Positions 33,385 through 48,974 of a stretch of 64,000 nt of DNA are shown here, piece by piece. The stretch is from contig NZ_CP147520.1 of assembly GCF_037201975.1 (NCBI RefSeq), forward strand, positions 1,674,001 to 1,738,000, written 5' to 3'. The stretch's first letter is position 1. Each line of letters starts with the position of its first letter. Made by a program: the position numbers and the translations under genes. The notes under the pieces are model-generated. The model had not been told where the DNA came from and made no database searches. It worked only from the letters and a program-made list of their open reading frames with translations. Origin of the DNA: Streptomyces sp. TG1A-60 (GTDB taxonomy: Bacteria > Actinomycetota > Actinomycetes > Streptomycetales > Streptomycetaceae).

Positions 33385-35712
33385 ATGACCTCTGTCGTGC
33401 CTGCCGCCACCTACCGGCTTCAGCTTCAGCCCTCGTTTCCCTTCGCCGCCGCGTCGGCCGCCGTGCCGTACATCGCCTCGCTCGGGATCTCGCACCTTCA
33501 TCTGTCCCCCGTGCTGGAGGCCGTGCCGGGGTCGGGACACGGGTACGACGTGGTGGACCACGGGCGGGTGCGGGGCGAGCTGGGCGGGGAGGAGGGGCTG
33601 CGGGCGCTGGCCCGCACCGCCCGGGAGCACGGGGTCGGGCTGGTGGTGGACATCGTGCCCAATCACATGGCCATGGCGCCCCGGCACAACCGCGCGCTGT
33701 GGGAGGTGTTGCGGGAGGGGCCTCGGTCGGCGTACGCGCGGTGGTTCGACATCGACTGGGAGGCCCAGGGCGGGCGGGTGCTGCTGCCGGTGCTCGGGGG
33801 GCCGCTGGGGGCGGAGGTCGAGCAGTTCGTGGTGGACGGGCGGGAGCTGCGCTACTACGACCACGTGTTCCCGCTGCGGGAGGGCACCGAGAAGCTGCCG
33901 TTGCCGCGGTTGCTGGACGCGCAGTGGTACCGGCCGGTGTGGTGGCGGCTGGCCCGTACGGAGCTGAACTACCGGCGGTTCTTCAGCATCTCGGAGCTGA
34001 TCGGGGTGCGGGTGGAGGATCCGGAGGTCTTCGACGCGACGCACGCGAAGATCCTCCAGCTGCTGGACGAGGATGTCGTCGACGGGCTGCGCGTCGATCA
34101 TCCTGACGGGCTCGCCGATCCCGACGCCTATCTGCGGCGGCTGCACGAGGCCACCGGTGGGCGGTGGACCGTCGTCGAGAAGATCCTCGCGGACGGGGAG
34201 GCGCTGCCTGCCGCGTGGCCGGTCGCGGGAACCACCGGCTATGACGCGCTGCGGCACGTCGACGGGCTGTTCAACGATCCGGCCGGGACCGGTGAGCTGT
34301 TGGGGCACTACCGGCGGTTCACGGCCGTGCAGGCCGACCGGGGCGGTGAGTGGGAGCCGACCGTGCGGCGGGCCGCGTACCGGGTGCTCACGCACGAGCT
34401 GGTCACGGAGGTCGAACGGCTCACCCGGGTGGCGCACCGGCTGTGCGAGCGCTCCCCCGATCTCGCCCTGCGCGACCACGCGCCGTGGGCACTGCGCACC
34501 GCGCTGTGCGAGCTGCTCGCGCGGATGACGGTGTACCGCCCGTACGCCTCCCAGGACGCCTCCCTCGTCGTCACCGAGGAGGCCGCGGCCGAGGCGCGCG
34601 CGGTGTTCGTGGTGCCCGAGGAGGCCCGGTCGGTGGATGCCGTACGGGATCTGGTGCTCGGGCGGTTCGGGGAGGGGCCCGAGCAGGTGGAGTTCCGGGC
34701 GCGGTTCGCGCAGACCTCGTCGGCGCTGCGGGCCAAGTCGGTGGAGGACACGGCGTTCTACCGTTATGTGCCGTTGCTGTCGGCGAACGAGGTGGGCGGT
34801 GAGCCGGGGAGTCCTGCCGTGTCGCCGGAGGACTTTCACGCGTACTGCGCGCGTGCGCAGCGGGACTGGCCGGGCACGGGGACCGTGTTGTCGACGCACG
34901 ACACCAAGCGCAGCGCGGATGTGCGGGCGGCGATCGCGGTGCTCGGGGAGTGCCCGCAGCGGTGGGCCGACGTGCTGGCGGAGGTGACGCGGGACGGTGC
35001 GGGTGTGCCGGACGCGCAGCTGGCGTGGGCGGCGTGGCAGACGGCGTTCGGGCTCGGGCCGGCGGACGGGGAGCGGCTTGAGGGGGCGCTGCTGAAGCAT
35101 GTGCGGGAGGCGGGGCTGCACACCTCCTGGACAGAGCAGAACCCGGCGTACGAGCGGGCGGTGGCCGACTTCGTGGCGCGGGGGCCCGCCGTGGACACCC
35201 GGGTGGCCGCGCTGCGGGCCGCCCTGGAGCCCCATGTGCGGGCGAACGGTCTCGGTGCGGCCCTGGTGCAGCTGACCATGCCGGGGGTGCCGGACGTCTA
35301 CCAGGGGACGGAGGGCGAGTACCGGGCGTTGGTGGACCCCGACAACCGGCGGCCCTTCGCCCCGCGGGAGGAATCCTCGGAGAAGTCCCGGCTCACCTCG
35401 GCCGCGCTGCGGCTGCGCCGGCGGCGGCCCGAGGTGTTCGGGGAGGCGGCGACGTACACGCCGCTGGCCGCTGACGGGCCGGGGGCCGGGCACTGCGTCG
35501 CCTTCGTGCGGTCCGGTGCGGTGGTCACGGCTGTCACGCGGCTGTCGCTGCGGCTGGCCGAGGCCGGGGGCTGGGGGGAGACGCGGCTGACGCTGCCGGA
35601 GGGGCGGTGGGCCGACGTGGTCGACGGGGAGCGGGAGTTCATGGGGGGTGCCCGGGTGGCGGAGCTGTTCGGAACGCTGCCGGTCGCGCTGCTGGAGCGG
35701 GTCGACGGGTGA
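33385..35712 (+). CDS. treY: Maltooligosyltrehalose synthase
   Basis: Isomerises the reducing-end glucose of maltodextrins from alpha-1,4 to alpha,alpha-1,1 linkage, the first step of the TreYZ trehalose route. 775 residues, the family's usual length. Motifs: HLSPVLEAVPGSGHGYDV (typical TreY N-terminus), DIVPNHMAM, the GH13 nucleophile block DGLRVDHPDGLADP, the acid/base Glu in VVEKILADGE and the late TVLSTHDTKRSADVRA. ATG at 33385. It follows glgX by 174 bp containing a short repeat, and treZ lies 3 kb downstream on the same strand, with an inserted inhibitor/peptidase cluster between. No frame problem here, unlike glgX and treZ. Confidence 0.95.
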   Translation: MTSVVPAATYRLQLQPSFPFAAASAAVPYIASLGISHLHLSPVLEAVPGSGHGYDVVDHGRVRGELGGEEGLRALARTAREHGVGLVVDIVPNHMAMAPRHNRALWEVLREGPRSAYARWFDIDWEAQGGRVLLPVLGGPLGAEVEQFVVDGRELRYYDHVFPLREGTEKLPLPRLLDAQWYRPVWWRLARTELNYRRFFSISELIGVRVEDPEVFDATHAKILQLLDEDVVDGLRVDHPDGLADPDAYLRRLHEATGGRWTVVEKILADGEALPAAWPVAGTTGYDALRHVDGLFNDPAGTGELLGHYRRFTAVQADRGGEWEPTVRRAAYRVLTHELVTEVERLTRVAHRLCERSPDLALRDHAPWALRTALCELLARMTVYRPYASQDASLVVTEEAAAEARAVFVVPEEARSVDAVRDLVLGRFGEGPEQVEFRARFAQTSSALRAKSVEDTAFYRYVPLLSANEVGGEPGSPAVSPEDFHAYCARAQRDWPGTGTVLSTHDTKRSADVRAAIAVLGECPQRWADVLAEVTRDGAGVPDAQLAWAAWQTAFGLGPADGERLEGALLKHVREAGLHTSWTEQNPAYERAVADFVARGPAVDTRVAALRAALEPHVRANGLGAALVQLTMPGVPDVYQGTEGEYRALVDPDNRRPFAPREESSEKSRLTSAALRLRRRRPEVFGEAATYTPLAADGPGAGHCVAFVRSGAVVTAVTRLSLRLAEAGGWGETRLTLPEGRWADVVDGEREFMGGARVAELFGTLPVALLERVDG

Positions 35713-35873
35713 CCGAGACTCGCCTGCCGGGGAGTGGTGACTCCCGTGCCGGCCAAGGCCGAATGCCCCTGGGCGCCTCGAGCCGCCCCGTCCACGGAAG
35801 GACACTGGGGAATTTCCCCCACTCGGGGCTCGATCGGGTGCATGGGATCTGATGCCAGGCGGACTGGACGGGG

Positions 35874-36040
35874 GTGGGTCTCCTGTTGGACCTCGGTCAT
35901 CCCACGGTGGCGCAACTGAAGGCGGCGGCACGGTGCCCTACGGCGCGTCGGCCGGGACTGTGCGCGCTGCGGCGGATCGGTGTCTCGCGGGCGGGCCGGC
36001 CGCTGCGGCTGCTGTCCGTGGGCCGTACGAGACGTGCTTC
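35874..36040 (+). pseudogene. Fragment of an M14 carboxypeptidase gene
   Basis: The plus-strand frame HPTVAQLKAAARCPTARR followed by RIGVSRAGRPLRLLSVGR aligns with the N-terminus of the intact M14 peptidase encoded just downstream on the other strand (YPTVDELSARAAAIV..., RRVGTSRAGTPMWLLSVGR). Only about 50 residues remain; the reading then enters the antisense of the SSI-like gene and no HxxE zinc site follows. It is too diverged to be a recent duplication. It may once have been a second, oppositely oriented carboxypeptidase truncated by rearrangement. No promoter or ribosome site was evaluated. Confidence 0.55.
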
Positions 36041-36448
36041 TCAGCTCGACAGGGCGAACACCGCTCCCGTCCGGGCCGCCATCACACAGCCGTTCGCGAA
36101 CGGCTGCTCGTAGCCGACCGGTCGGCCGTTCCACTGCCCGCGGGCCGTGACGCGGACCGGCGCGTAGATCTCGGTGCAGACGGCGTCCTCGTGGGGGATG
36201 CGGGTGATGTCCCCGCCGGCCTCGCGGAGTTCCGCGCAGGCCTGGACGGCCTGGCCGTGGCCCTGGGGCGGGTCGCAGAGGAGCAGGGTGCCGCGGGTGT
36301 CGGAGGAGCGGGCGTCGCCGCGGGTGACGGAGACATACAGCCAGTCACCGTTGAAGGAGGTCGCTCCGGCCGGAGCGGAGGCGCCGACGGTGAGCAGCGC
36401 GAGCGCCGCCAGCAGACCGCTGCGTACCGCGTGGATGGTGTGCGTCAT
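36041..36448 (-). CDS. SSI-family (subtilisin inhibitor-like) secreted protease inhibitor
   Basis: 135-residue secreted inhibitor. The signal peptide has the hydrophobic core SGLLAALALLTVGASAPAGA with likely cleavage after AGA. The mature protein keeps the four SSI cysteines in order (LLLCDPP, QACAEL, AVCTEIYAP, NGCVMA). The reactive-site loop aligns without gaps to SSI: EDVMCPMVYDP there, EDAVCTEIYAP here, so P1 is Glu instead of Met. SSI-family members normally have Met, Lys or Arg at P1. Inference: the target may be a glutamyl-specific protease rather than subtilisin. Its ATG (36448) overlaps the stop of the M14 gene (ATGA), so the two are coupled. A longer start at 36484 is less likely. 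Confidence 0.85.
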   Translation of the reverse strand: MTHTIHAVRSGLLAALALLTVGASAPAGATSFNGDWLYVSVTRGDARSSDTRGTLLLCDPPQGHGQAVQACAELREAGGDITRIPHEDAVCTEIYAPVRVTARGQWNGRPVGYEQPFANGCVMAARTGAVFALSS

Positions 36449-37893
36449 TCCCGGTGCATCGGCACGGCGGGCTCGGAACTCCATCCCGGCTCACCCGAAC
36501 GGGAATCCGCGTGGGCGTCCGGGCAGGCGGCCGGCGGGGCGGGCGCCGTGCGCGGGCGGCCGGCCGCCAGGTCGAAGGCGGCGAGGACCACGCGTGTCTG
36601 GTACTCCGCCTGGCGGGCGACGGGGATCCAGCGCGCCCGGTAGCCGTCACGGTAGTCGGCGCACCACTCGTCGATGAGCCGGTCCAGCTCGGGCAACGCG
36701 CCGGCCGGGTCGTGTCCGGCACGGGTCACCAGCTGGTGCAGCAGCCCGGCGGCGCGCAGGGCGACCCGGCGGCCGGAGATGGCGAGGGCGGCGAGCCGGG
36801 CGGTGTCGAGCGGTGGCAGCGGCCGGGCGGCGCCGTCGTGGACGTCGGGGTCCCAGGAGTCGGCGAGGCCGGGGCCGACCAGAAGGTAGTCGTCGACCGG
36901 AGCGAGCAGCCGGGCGGCGTCCGGGCCACCGCTCACCGAGGGGCGGACCCGGGCGAGGATGTCCCCCAGCAGGCGGGTGTCACGGCGCAGAACGCGGCTG
37001 ACGGTGCGCAGTACGGCGTCGGCGTCGGGTGACGCGGAGGCGTCCTCGACTGCGCTCACGCCCCACATGGGTGCCTCGACGACGGCGGTGACCGTGCCGT
37101 AGCGGTGCGGGTGGAACCAGGTGGATTCGACGGCCGCCTCGGTCATGGCGGCGGCCAGGTCGCCCCGGCGCGGGGGCGGGATGCGGTAGACGGCGGGGCC
37201 GAGGCAGGGCCAGTACAGGGTGTCGTACGGGCGCAGCTCGCGCGGGATGCCGAGGCGGGCGGCGGTGTGGGCGACGCGCTGGACGATGCCCGGCAGCTCT
37301 CGGGTCAGCTCGACGAAGCCGCCGCCGACGTCGACGCCGTGCAGGGAGCACTGGAAGAAGGGCCGCAGTTCGTCCTGGAGGCCGAGCAGGGCACGGGTCT
37401 CCGGCAGGACGGCCCCGGCCGCGCCGTCGGGCAGCCACTCGGGCTGTTCCAGGAAGCCGGGGCGGAAGAAGTTCCGGAAGTAGTGTCCGAGGGTGTACGG
37501 GCCGGACAGCCAGCCCTCGTTGCGGCGGGAGCCGTCGGGGTCGAGGCTCAGCAGCAGGTTCCAGGTGATGTCGGCGGCGTCGCTCAACCGGGGTTCGGCC
37601 AGGGCCCGTTCGGCGAGTCTGAGGACCGTGGCCCCGCCCACGGGTTCGTTGGCGTGCGGTCCGGCGACGATCAGGGTGTGGCGGCTGCCCCGGCCGACGG
37701 ACAGCAGCCACATCGGGGTGCCCGCCCGTGAGGTGCCCACCCGGCGCAGCCGGGCGCGGTGCGGATGTCCGGCGACGATCGCGGCGGCACGGGCGGACAA
37801 CTCGTCCACGGTCGGGTAGCGGAGGAGGGGCGGCAGGGCACACCTCCACGAATGTGGCGCCGTCGGTTCACCTGGTGTGCATGGTGTAAGCAC
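36445..37893 (-). CDS. M14-family zinc carboxypeptidase
   Basis: 482 residues. The zinc site begins with AGPHANEPVGGATV (H-x-x-E); the third ligand is probably the His in CSLHGVDVGG, and the general-base Glu probably the one in AVVEAPMWG. Known of the family: metallocarboxypeptidases remove C-terminal residues or cut specific amide bonds in peptides and cell-wall precursors. There is no signal peptide, so it appears cytoplasmic. GTG at 37893 is used; the first residues are not convincing, and a GGAGG 6 bp upstream of an in-frame CTG near 37849 is an alternative start. The stop overlaps the inhibitor start. Linkage with a secreted inhibitor is unusual. Confidence 0.82.
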   Translation of the reverse strand: MLTPCTPGEPTAPHSWRCALPPLLRYPTVDELSARAAAIVAGHPHRARLRRVGTSRAGTPMWLLSVGRGSRHTLIVAGPHANEPVGGATVLRLAERALAEPRLSDAADITWNLLLSLDPDGSRRNEGWLSGPYTLGHYFRNFFRPGFLEQPEWLPDGAAGAVLPETRALLGLQDELRPFFQCSLHGVDVGGGFVELTRELPGIVQRVAHTAARLGIPRELRPYDTLYWPCLGPAVYRIPPPRRGDLAAAMTEAAVESTWFHPHRYGTVTAVVEAPMWGVSAVEDASASPDADAVLRTVSRVLRRDTRLLGDILARVRPSVSGGPDAARLLAPVDDYLLVGPGLADSWDPDVHDGAARPLPPLDTARLAALAISGRRVALRAAGLLHQLVTRAGHDPAGALPELDRLIDEWCADYRDGYRARWIPVARQAEYQTRVVLAAFDLAAGRPRTAPAPPAACPDAHADSRSGEPGWSSEPAVPMHRE

Positions 37894-38011
37894 AGTCAGT
37901 CATGGCCGAGAACGTACGTCAACACCCTCGAACCGAAGGGAAGTTGGGAAACTCGCTGCGTAAATCCCAGGCCAGAGCTTTGCGGTGGGTCGACGGGCGC
38001 CCGGTTCCGTC

Positions 38012-38563
38012 TCACTCCGAGGAGAGCCGGAAGGCCATCCGGCCGAAACCCACTTGATCGCCGTCCCGCACGATGGCCGCGCCGATCACCCGACGGCCGT
38101 TGACGGTGGTGCCGTTGGTGGAGCCGAGGTCGCGCAGGATCCACATGCCGCCCTGCCGGCTCAGCTCGGCGTGCACCCGGGAGACCGTCTCGTGGCTGAG
38201 CCGGAGGCCGCTCGCGGGGTCGCGGCCGATGCGCAGACTGTGACCGCTCGCCGGATGCGGCAGCTGGAGCTTGGGCAGCCGCTCGGTCTGCCAGGCCCGG
38301 CGCAGCTTCACCCCGAAGCCGGACATCGCCCCGACGGTGCCGAGCACCAGCCGGGACCACCGCTTCTCGGCGGGCAGGTCGGCGGTGAGCGCGGCGAGTT
38401 CGTCGGAGCGGCGGGCGGTGAGCGCCAGCTCCATGCGCCGGATGAACGTGTCGTGCGACAGCCGGCCCAGTGCGACGCCGTCACGGAGCGCGCTCAGCGC
38501 GCGGTCGCGCTCCGCGTCCGACAGCCGCGCGGGGTACGTGTGGAACTCGAAGGACGACGTCAC
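38012..38563 (-). CDS. DUF1707 and FHA domain protein
   Basis: 183 residues. N-terminal DUF1707 domain RLSDAERDRALSALRDGV, with FIRRMELALTARRSDELAAL after it. The C-terminal FHA domain (residues about 105-183) has the phosphothreonine-binding core LRIGRDPASGLRLSHETVSR and the hallmark LGSTNGTTVNGRRV. Such proteins bind phosphothreonine partners of Ser/Thr kinases, so a role in signalling is likely. A GTG at 38563 fits the family start; a GTG-ATG rich stretch upstream could give a longer form. Divergent from treZ with 189 bp between. Confidence 0.8.
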   Translation of the reverse strand: MTSSFEFHTYPARLSDAERDRALSALRDGVALGRLSHDTFIRRMELALTARRSDELAALTADLPAEKRWSRLVLGTVGAMSGFGVKLRRAWQTERLPKLQLPHPASGHSLRIGRDPASGLRLSHETVSRVHAELSRQGGMWILRDLGSTNGTTVNGRRVIGAAIVRDGDQVGFGRMAFRLSSE

Positions 38564-38752
38564 GCACGCGATTGTCGCCTCGGTACCACCGGGGTGTCCA
38601 CAAGACCCGTGAACGGTGACCATCTCCGGACACAGCGACGCACGCGGCAAAAGCGCCGATCCGAGCGCGCGCCGATGCCGTTTGCCGCACGATGGACGGG
38701 CTACACCTGACTACCCCAGGACCAGGACCGGCAGCCGAGGGAGAACCGTTTC

Positions 38753-40515
38753 GTGCAGTTCGAGGTGTGGGCACCGCAGGCCGACCGTATGACGCTCCAC
38801 TGCGCGGGCGCCACGCACGCGATGGAGCGGGACCCGGACCGGCCGGGCTGGTGGACCGCCGAGGCGGGGCCGGAGCCGGGAGCGGGGTCGGCGGACGGCA
38901 CGCGCTACGGCTTCGCGGCCGACGACGGTCCCGTGCTGCCCGACCCGCGCTCCCGCCGCCAGCCGGACGGCCCCGACGGGCTGAGCGCGGTCGTCGACCA
39001 CGAACGGTACCCGTGGCGCACGCCATGGGCGGGGCGCGGGCTGCCGGGGGCGGTGCTCTACGAGCTGCACGTCGGCACGTACACCCCCGAGGGCACGCTG
39101 GACGCCGCCGCCCAGCGCCTCGGCCATCTCGTCGAACTCGGTGTCACACACGTCGAGTTGATGCCGCTGTGCCCGTTTCCCGGGACGCACGGCTGGGGGT
39201 ACGAGGGCGTCTCGCTCTGGGCCGTGCACGAGCCGTACGGCGGTCCCGAGGCGCTGAAGCGGTTCGTGGACGCGGCGCACGGGCTGGGGCTCGGCGTGGT
39301 GCTCGACGTCGTGCACAACCACCTGGGCCCCTCCGGCAACTACCTGCCCGTCTTCGGCCCCTACTTCACCGAGCGGCACCACACGCCCTGGGGCGCGGCG
39401 GTCAACCTGGACGCGCCCGGCTCGGACGAGGTGCGGGCGTACTTCCTGGGAAGCGCCCTGGCCTGGCTGCGCGACTACCGCCTCGACGGCCTGCGCCTGG
39501 ACGCGGTGCACGCTCTCAAGGACACCCGCGCGCTGCACTTCCTGGAGGAGCTGTCGACGGCAGTGGACGCCCTCGCCGACGAGGTGCGGCGGCCCCTGTT
39601 CCTGATCGCCGAGTCCGACCTGAACGATCCCCGCCTGGTGACCCCGCGCGCCCAGGGCGGCCTCGGGGTGCACGCCCAGTGGAACGACGACTTCCACCAC
39701 ACCCTGCACACCACCCTGACCGGCGAATCGCGGGGCTACTACACGGACTTCGCGCGGGCCGGCCTGGCGGGCCTGGCGAAGACCCTGACGGGCGGCTACT
39801 TCCACGACGGCACCTACTCGTCGTTCCGGGAACGTCGCCACGGCCGGCCCCTGGACCGCACGAGCGTGTCCGCCCACCGTCTGCTGGGCTACGCCCAGAC
39901 CCACGACCAGGTCGGCAACCGCGCCCGGGGAGACCGTCTCTCCGCCGTCCTCTCCCCGGACTGCTGGCCTGCGCGGCGGCGCTGGTGCTGACGGGGCCGT
40001 TCACACCCATGCTCTTCATGGGTGAGGAGTGGGCCGCCTCCTCACCCTGGCAGTTCTTCACCGACCACACCGACCCCGAGCTCGCGGAGGCGGTACGGCG
40101 GGGCAGGCGGCGGGAGTTCGCCGCGCACGGGTGGGCCGAGGAGGACGTGCCGGATCCACAGGACCCCGCGACCCGTGACCGGTCCTGCCTCGACTGGTCC
40201 GAGCCCGGCCGCGAGCCCCACGCCCGTGTCCTCGCCTGGTACCGCGACCTCATCACCCTGCGCCGCACCCTCCCCGACCTCTCCGACCCCGACCTCTCCG
40301 ACGTCCACGTCACGTTCGACGAGGAGGCCAGGTGGTTCGGCTTCCGGCGGGGGGACGTGCTGGTGGCGATGAACCTGGGCGAGCAGCCGGTCGCGGTTCC
40401 GCTCGGGGTGCCCCACGCGCGGGCGCTCGCGGCCTGGGAGCCGGTGCGGGCCCCGGGGGCGGACGGGGTGCTGAGGCTGGCCGGGGAGTCGTGCGTGGTC
40501 CTGATGGCGGCGTGA
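38753..40515 (+). pseudogene. treZ: Maltooligosyltrehalose trehalohydrolase TreZ, interrupted by one -1 frameshift
   Basis: Hydrolyses maltooligosyltrehalose to release trehalose. The N-terminal CBM48-like part and GH13 core are present: YELHVGTYTPEG, VVLDVVHNHLGPSGNY, nucleophile DGLRLDAVHAL, acid/base FLIAESDLNDPR and the HDQVGNRARGDR block. The frame breaks at 39954-39959 (CCCCGG), where SAVLSP should continue GLLACAAALVLTGPF; one extra base restores it. The remainder (MLFMGEEWAASSPWQFF, ending VVLMAA) is intact in the second frame. Repaired protein about 587 residues, normal for TreZ. As read, the first frame ends at 39991 after 412 residues. GTG start at 38753 has GAGGGAGA upstream. Likely a sequencing error, as in glgX. 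Confidence 0.85.
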
Positions 40516-46129: not shown

Positions 46130-47980
<1,851 letters not shown>

Positions 47981-48401
47981 GTCAGGGGAGGAGCGGCGGT
48001 GAAACGCTTCTTCATCGAAGCGGCGGGGGGGTCCAGAAAGGGGTGGCGCTGAGGCCGGCCAGGCGCGAGCTGCATCAGGGGTTACCTGGAGTTCAGCTGT
48101 GCGATGACCATAGGCAAAGCGCAGGTCACGGGGATACGGGGAAAACCCTCGACCCGTCGGTAACTTCCCTATGCCGCCCGACAGTCGGGCCCGGATATGA
48201 CACTTCGCCGGTTTCGCCGAGGCGCTGCCCCCGTACGGCGCGTGACGGGATCCGGCCGGCCGAACAAGGTCGGCGCGTGGAACACTGCACGCGCGGGTTC
48301 CGTACGTCTCCGTGGACCGCCCGAGCCTGGACTCGGGTGCTCGGATCCGGGATCCGAAGCCCCGGGCACCAGCCCTCAGCCGCCGGCACCCGTCCCGCGG
48401 A
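47981..48401. other. Intergenic region upstream of the S8 peptidase
   Basis: 421 bp with no supported gene; holds the protease promoter, with CGGTAACTTC at 48156-48165. The plus strand toward 48400 is a GC-rich stretch before the LPMO relic begins. Confidence 0.45.
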
Positions 48402-48974
48402 GCCGGGTTACGACCCCACGAAGCCGCTGAGCGGTCCGACCTGCCCGAGAGGCCGTTCGCCTCGGTCACCGACCCGCAGCTCCGGGACGGCTCGTACCGT
48501 TTCCCTGCGAAGCCGCCGACGGACCGGCCAGGGCACCATGTGCTGTGCGCCATCCGGCACGACACGAGCACGGTGGACACCTGCTACTCGTGTTCGGACG
48601 CGGCGTTCCCCTGGGTGAAGCAGGCCGACTCGAAGACCGATGGCGCACGTCCGGCGAAGCCACCCGCCGGGGGCGAGGAGACCGAGGCCGAGAAAGTCGG
48701 CGGCGGAAAAGCCCGGGCCCGCCGCCAAGCCCACGCCCATGCCCATGCCCACGGAGTCCACGGAGGCGCCGCCCGTCGCAGCGGACACGGGCGCCGGCGA
48801 CGCTCGGGCAGTCGACCCCGACAGCCCCGTCGGCCTCCACGACGGACGAGAGCGGCACCACCGTGCCACTGGTGGAGGGCGGTGCCCGCGGCGTTGGTAC
48901 TCGCCGCGGGCACCGCCCTCTTCCCGCGCGGACGCGGGCACCACTCTCACATCAGCTGCCCGTCAGGCGACTGA
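48402..48974 (+). pseudogene. Relic of an AA10 lytic polysaccharide monooxygenase gene
   Basis: The frame first reads GYDPTKPLS (48402-48434), then one base is missing (an expected TGG reads GG) and the next frame gives SDLPERPFASVTDPQLRDGS, YRFPAKPPTDRPGHHVLCAI and DTCYSCSDAAF. This matches the C-terminal third of AA10 chitin/cellulose-active monooxygenases, where the same YDPTKPL, VTDP, RxGxHxLYxxWQ and YYSCSD blocks occur. The N-terminus with the copper-binding first His is missing. After 48600 a Pro/Thr/Glu-rich linker and a hydrophobic tail typical of membrane-anchored LPMOs can be traced through three frames to TTLTSAARQATD (stop near 48974). Multiple lesions make this a true pseudogene. 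Confidence 0.65.

Follow-up and report, generated by a model that had tools for sequence, protein, structure and literature searches.

The locus described here, from Streptomyces sp. TG1A-60, raises the question of which protease is met by an inhibitor of the SSI family that carries glutamate at P1. The window is the whole stretch of 64,000 nucleotides that was analysed, and the inhibitor gene lies on its minus strand. The reactive site was assigned by alignment to SSI, the P1 residue was compared across the family, and the proteases of the genomes that carry such inhibitors were searched for a candidate target.

Inhibitor Gene and Family Assignment

The inhibitor gene and its parts are as follows.

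36041..36448, minus strand: gene for an SSI-family (PF00720) inhibitor, probably secreted, with Glu at P1 (Pfam, PDB matches, cysteines)
36361..36448, minus strand: probable signal peptide with an approximate end (hydrophobic N-terminus, by eye in the translation)
36170..36172, minus strand: P1 codon GAG, Glu93, the equivalent of SSI Met73 (alignment to SSI)
36152..36154, minus strand: codon for Arg99, at the P6′ position (column comparison)

The open reading frame runs from an ATG at 36448 to a stop codon at 36041–36043 and encodes a protein of 135 amino acids. An alternative in-frame ATG upstream, at 36484, would give a protein of 147 amino acids. It is the less likely start, since the listed homologues begin at the position equivalent to 36448; their N-terminal residues are MT in 110 of 120, MK in nine, and MR in one.

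The protein matches the Pfam SSI profile with 84.2 bits (cut-off 23.9, E 6.3e-24) and is a member of PF00720, which we take to be MEROPS family I16. Seven distinct PDB sequences were matched at E 0.001, the top one being the SSI chain of 3SIC (E 3.5e-15). The cut-off of the NCBIfam models NF009715/6/7 was missed, with a best score of 86.9 bits against 197, and by these scores the window protein is placed in a subfamily different from the one that the models describe. Its N-terminus indicates that it is probably secreted, and membership of the family suggests that it would inhibit serine proteases by the standard mechanism. A scan for promoters and terminators was uninformative.

Assignment of the P1 Residue

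The register of the reactive-site loop was obtained by sequence alignment to solved SSI chains. In the HMMER alignment, EDAVCTEIYAP of the window protein matches EDVMCPMVYDP of 3SSI without a gap, and Glu93 falls in the column of SSI Met73. The C-x-P1-x-Y-x-P loop is likewise in register (CTEIYAP against CPMVYDP). The 3SIC sequence has Lys in the P1 column where 3SSI has Met; we take 3SIC to be the M73K variant of SSI. Cysteines 58, 71, 91, and 121 align with the four disulfide cysteines of SSI and are invariant in 67 aligned relatives. The P4–P4′ residues of SSI are Met-Cys-Pro-Met73-Val-Tyr-Asp-Pro, as given in PMC9623506. Since P1 of SSI is Met73 and the alignment is ungapped, P1 of the window protein is Glu93. 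The preliminary description had placed Glu at P1 and had stated that the four disulfide cysteines are all retained; both statements are confirmed.

P1 Residues across the SSI Family

The genome of TG1A-60 contains three SSI-domain matches. One is a canonical SSI copy (P0122, L001) with Lys at P1 in the loop CTKEYDP, and the third match is divergent, with the loop CTMQYGG. For the relatives of the canonical copy, P1 is Lys in 105 and Arg in 15 among the matches listed (120 of 772). For the closest homologues of the window protein (best 120 of 446, query included), P1 is Met in 78, Glu in 27, Gln in 13, His in one, and Leu in one. In 60 of the sequences listed among the matches in the class outside Streptomyces, P1 is Met (26), Leu (6), Ala (5), Glu (4), Lys (3), or His (3); Arg, Phe, Thr, Pro, and Tyr occur twice each and Ser, Gly, and Gln once each.

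Because P1 is so highly varied in these 60 sequences, Met, Lys, or Arg at this position is a habit of Streptomyces and not a rule of the SSI family. The norm of Met, Lys, or Arg that had been assumed for the family applies within Streptomyces, where the canonical inhibitors have Lys or Arg and the inhibitors of this locus mostly have Met, and it fails in the wider family with its 14 residue types. P1 was compared across the family, as had been proposed as a check, and P1 Glu of the window protein is no stray mutation; it belongs to a clade that has Glu, Gln, or in one row His at this position.

A Streptomyces Clade with Glu or Gln at P1

A tree of 213 rows, nearly all of them orthologues from the same locus, was computed without the P2 and P1 columns. 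Left out of the set were L003, all rows below 80 residues in length, of which the canonical L001 is one, and rows that duplicate another over the C-terminal 100 residues. P1 is Met in 154 rows, Leu in five, Ala in one, and Lys in two (L108 and L110). The remaining 51 rows have Glu (33), Gln (17), or His (1), and all of them form a clade of their own that contains no further row (SH-aLRT 85). Near-copies remain in the set; 11 of the 51 clade rows match an earlier row over the 60 residues from CDPP on, and the number of independent rows is therefore smaller. The branching of the aligned rows shows a single origin of Glu/Gln at P1 in this Streptomyces clade.

Glu is not strictly kept at P1 across these 51 rows. 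Parsimony gives eight P1 changes within the clade, all of them exchanges between Glu, Gln, and His. By this count P1 ties for 10th to 14th place among 101 columns and does not belong to the slow ones inside the clade, and relaxed constraint between neighbouring codons is for this reason a possible reading; the P1 codons at 11 loci are GAG and CAG, which are one base apart.

The clade was also compared column by column with the 160 Met/Leu/Ala rows, a comparison that leaves out the two Lys rows. Of the 130 columns, P1 and position 99 (P6′) differ most between the two groups. Arg is present at P6′ in 51 of 51 Glu/Gln/His-P1 rows, against Thr in 147 of the 160 Met/Leu/Ala rows. At P2, Pro (126 of 160) gives way to Thr (40 of 51), and at P4 the Phe or Tyr found in most Met/Leu/Ala rows is replaced by Ile, Val, Leu, or Met. 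On the primed side, the clade has Tyr (48) or His (3) at P2′, with Ala at P3′ and Pro at P4′ in all 51 rows. A basic residue at P6′ strengthened the binding of a synthetic subtilisin-binding peptide, according to PMC9623506, an effect that may or may not extend to the SSI fold.

Genes Surrounding the Inhibitor

The neighbouring features are listed in order of position.

33385..35712, plus strand: alpha-amylase-family gene (PF00128), a conserved flank, presumably treY (maltooligosyltrehalose synthase)
35853..36038, plus strand: remnant of a second M14 gene, M14-B (tblastn with the L092 M14-B, E 2e-30)
36445..36448, minus strand: ATGA overlap of the M14-A stop and the inhibitor start (sequence)
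36445..37893, minus strand: M14-family zinc carboxypeptidase-like gene, M14-A (PF00246, E 6e-9)
38012..38650, minus strand: gene for a DUF1707 and FHA domain protein, a conserved neighbour (domain matches)
38753..39991, plus strand: alpha-amylase-family gene, a conserved flank, presumably treZ, with the frame apparently broken near the 3′ end

In Streptomyces, the inhibitor, M14, and FHA/DUF1707 genes make up a conserved minus-strand set (36041–38650 in the window) between the treY-like and treZ-like genes. Where the stretch is long enough, the gene order is treY, M14-B, inhibitor, M14-A, FHA, treZ. The inhibitor is accompanied by a treY-/treZ-like gene and by one or more M14 genes in 46 of 47 loci, some of them from the same species; the exception is L108. 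No M14-B match is present in L093, and no M14-A in L107 and L110. The latter two and 12 more loci have the inhibitor with the converging M14-B only and no upstream M14-A, and L091 has a short M14-A remnant. The treZ-like gene of the window (38753–40515, plus strand) is apparently split; the open part extends to 39991, and an ORF in another frame carries the treZ-like end to 40515. This seems to be a frameshift or a sequencing error.

The M14-A stop overlaps the inhibitor start in 57 of 75 loci (55 ATGA, 2 GTGA). In three loci M14-A adjoins the inhibitor with no overlap, and in 15 there is no M14-A match on that strand. The 75 loci represent 75 genomes out of the 108 with a close inhibitor match; the count omits L001, which belongs to the other SSI locus, as well as 16 duplicates (L002, L092–L106). 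The ATGA overlap suggests that M14-A and the inhibitor are translationally coupled. No report of inhibitor–M14 coupling within a trehalose locus was found in a narrow literature search of titles and abstract starts. Longer M14-B ORFs occupy the equivalent place in most of the 47 loci, and M14-B converges on the inhibitor gene in 45 of the 47 listed. The remnant in the window matches residues 1–62 of the L092 ORF at 81% identity, and the rest of M14-B was not found by tblastn in the gap of the window.

A Second Subfamily with Glu or Gln at P1

The four Glu cases outside Streptomyces (L318, L324, L326, L328) are members of a divergent SSI subfamily with a CTEIYGG-type loop, represented in Cellulomonas, Actinotalea, and Kineosporiaceae. 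Among the matches listed (120 of 837; P0242–P0361), P1 is Glu in 84, Gln in 30, Asp in four, Leu in one, and Met in one, which gives Glu, Gln, or Asp in 118 of 120; two of the 30 Gln rows were read from rows unmatched by the loop search. Lipoprotein-like N-termini were recognised with a loose motif in 99 of the 120 matches listed. The subfamily resembles the window protein in P1 Glu/Gln, P2 Thr, and the four cysteines, but it differs in its mostly lipoprotein-like N-termini, in one extra residue after P2′, and in its separate branch. Some further relatives (L321–L323 and L325) have Met or Tyr at P1. L319 also falls in this actinobacterial, mostly lipoprotein-like SSI-domain subfamily.

A second tree was computed from 67 chosen rows; its columns are few and several of its branches are long. 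In this tree, Met-P1 orthologues enclose the window clade, and the lipoprotein-type group stands apart as a starred branch of its own. A single origin of all Glu/Gln/Asp rows is rejected on this tree (AU p 1.5e-62), and the Glu/Gln/Asp state needs five changes, not two. The common locus of the Glu/Gln and Met rows points in the same direction. The alignment-based phylogeny shows that Glu/Gln P1 evolved independently in the window clade and in the lipoprotein-type subfamily.

Proteases in the Producer Genomes

The S. griseus Glu protease has orthologues (at least 71% identity) in 35 of 295 Streptomyces genomes. In none of 10 genomes with a Glu/Gln-P1 inhibitor, that of TG1A-60 included, was an orthologue of this enzyme (1HPG) found. 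Six of these genomes are within the 295-genome set, and four were searched directly, with a best match of 54%; G248 and G296, which denote one genome, were counted once. His at the specificity position is used here as the marker of a Glu-specific enzyme, as in V8. The S1E proteases of TG1A-60 have Thr, not His, at the marker position of the S. griseus Glu protease. In those S1E proteases that were read, from nine of the 10 genomes (all but G108), this position is Thr and in one case Ala (L333).

The absence of the Glu protease is not specific to P1 Glu, because the enzyme is rare (1 of 108) wherever this inhibitor subfamily occurs, irrespective of the residue at P1. The Glu protease orthologue and the inhibitor subfamily, present in 35 and 108 of the 295 genomes, share a single genome (Fisher p 1e-6, kinship ignored), and the avoidance holds for Met-P1 genomes too.

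V8-like paralogues are present in all 24 genomes searched. A His-bearing V8-like domain was found in four of the 10 Glu/Gln-P1 genomes (G000, G139, G297, and G299; L198, L221, L225, and L226) against one of 14 Met-P1 genomes (G201; L199), a difference with a Fisher p of 0.12, kinship ignored. One of the four is the domain of TG1A-60 itself (L198), for which a search for PDB relatives found none. A Gly/Ala difference beside the V8-like pocket tracks the P1 groups in most rows; it looks like common descent and was set aside. A more distant His-bearing protease (L331) comes from a genome with a lipoprotein-type SSI; a relative with 53% identity occurs in one Met-P1 genome, and none so close occurs in the Glu/Gln-P1 genomes. 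In five genomes with a lipoprotein-type SSI, no S. griseus-type orthologue above 60% was found.

Thirteen S8 subtilase matches were obtained in the genome of TG1A-60, two of which (L196 and L197) are fragments of a single gene. No Lys or Arg, as a basic S1 residue, is present at 156 or 166 in the eight rows in which Asn155 and 166 are aligned to subtilisin (L185, L187, L188, L190, L191, L192, L194, and L195); L186 has a gap at 166, and L189, L193, L196, and L197 are unaligned there. At 46130–48580 on the minus strand, some 10 kb away from the inhibitor, lies the gene for an S8 subtilase that has a proprotein convertase P-domain; this enzyme is a candidate target. SGP-type protease matches number three to four per genome in the 10 Glu/Gln-P1 genomes against four to eight in the 14 Met-P1 genomes; this difference sets one clade against others and hence is no independent evidence.

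Probable Specificity of the Inhibitor

We hold with moderate confidence that the window protein would be a standard-mechanism SSI inhibitor in which the S1 preference is shifted to Glu/Gln, directed at a protease that accepts both, with some inhibition of subtilisin retained. In the ancestor of one Streptomyces clade, Glu/Gln would have taken the place of Met at P1, along with the shifts at P2 and P4 and the fixed Arg at P6′. The loop would enter the protease active site in the manner of a substrate and place its Glu or Gln of P1 in the S1 pocket. The protease behind this selection would probably be a secreted serine protease that takes Glu and Gln at P1. A strictly Glu-specific enzyme is disfavoured because Gln repeatedly replaces Glu. 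Retention of some subtilisin inhibition is probable; in the second-hand account given by PMC10004685, all P1 mutants of SSI retained subtilisin inhibition to differing degrees. There the Gln mutant is very strong, the Pro, Ile, Gly, and Val mutants from P1 saturation are weak against subtilisin, and Glu is unnamed. The interchange of Glu and Gln in two lineages and the behaviour of these mutants are the reasons for favouring a shifted, non-exclusive specificity.

The preliminary description had predicted specificity for glutamyl endopeptidases rather than subtilisin. This exclusive form of the prediction is not supported, in view of the same P1 mutants, of the repeated replacement of Glu by Gln, a change for which a target restricted to Glu would hardly select, and of the search of 10 Glu/Gln-P1 genomes, in which no S. 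griseus-type Glu protease orthologue was found. Inhibition of Glu-specific enzymes by the window protein is possible.

A dedicated inhibitor of glutamyl endopeptidases, aimed at a foreign enzyme or at an uncharacterised V8-like enzyme of the producers, appears rather unlikely. Glu is the commonest P1 residue both in the clade and among the listed matches of the CTEIYGG subfamily, the Glu protease orthologues of 35 Streptomyces genomes are possible foreign targets, and a Kazal inhibitor with an engineered P1 Glu is reportedly a strong inhibitor of the S. griseus Glu protease. The His-bearing V8-like domains of four Glu/Gln-P1 genomes, too small a number to judge by, fit as well, but at E 1e-20 this domain is absent from six of the 10. 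One-third of the clade rows (17 of 51) and one-quarter of the listed CTEIYGG-subfamily matches (30 of 120) have Gln, and the search of the 10 Glu/Gln-P1 genomes yielded neither an S. griseus-type orthologue nor, in the S1E proteases read, anything other than Thr or Ala at the marker position.

It is also improbable that P1 is no longer important, either through loss of the old target followed by drift or through action by another surface, as in the metalloprotease-inhibiting members of the family. The eight P1 changes within the clade would fit drift, the fewer SGP-type matches would fit the loss of a target, though in one clade, and ScNPI and the transglutaminase-activating metalloprotease inhibitor are relatives in the same family. 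Drift would be unlikely, however, to stay within Glu, Gln, and His while P2′, P3′, and P4′ stay fixed or nearly so, and unlikely to recur as Glu, Gln, or Asp in a separate subfamily. Least credible, and very improbable, is a role of the inhibitor as a partner or regulator of the coupled M14 carboxypeptidase. The frequent overlap with M14-A and the converging M14-B gene speak for it, but no signal peptide was seen by eye in the M14 proteins, M14-A of the window included, whereas the inhibitor is apparently secreted. The window has kept the inhibitor after losing most of M14-B, one-fifth of the loci (15 of 75) have no M14-A on that strand, and the coupling may merely set expression.

Relation to Known Inhibitors and Significance

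The window protein shares with SSI (PDB 3SSI and 2SIC) the family, the four cysteines, and an ungapped reactive loop. It differs in having Glu in place of Met73 at P1 and Thr in place of Pro at P2, and its gene occupies the treY–treZ interval together with an M14 gene. The SSI domain and the four cysteines are common to the canonical Lys/Arg-P1 Streptomyces inhibitors as well, one copy of which is in the same genome; these inhibitors are 35–42% identical to the window protein (17 aligned rows), lie at another locus, and have Lys or Arg at P1. ScNPI and the transglutaminase-activating metalloprotease inhibitor (PDB 4HWX and 6I0I) belong to the same family by sequence. Relatives of the ScNPI type are named for metalloprotease inhibition in the PDB molecule names, and the window protein was compared with them at the sequence level. 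To our knowledge, few natural canonical inhibitors have Glu at P1. No report of a natural Glu-P1 SSI was found in the literature searched, which was covered as listings with abstract starts; two classical papers on SSI-like proteins lay outside this search, and an earlier description is possible.

Two lineages of one fold with an independently acquired Glu/Gln bait constitute a natural experiment on shifts in S1 specificity, and they suggest that unrecognised proteases accepting Glu and Gln occur around these bacteria. We tentatively propose, as an idea that may well fail, that SSI-type inhibitors against secreted proteases cleaving at Glu/Gln have evolved at least twice in actinobacteria, at the treY–treZ locus and in a subfamily of inhibitors that seem to be membrane-anchored. 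If this is true, a class of natural inhibitors with an acid or amide residue at P1 would guard these bacteria from a not-yet-recognised type of protease.
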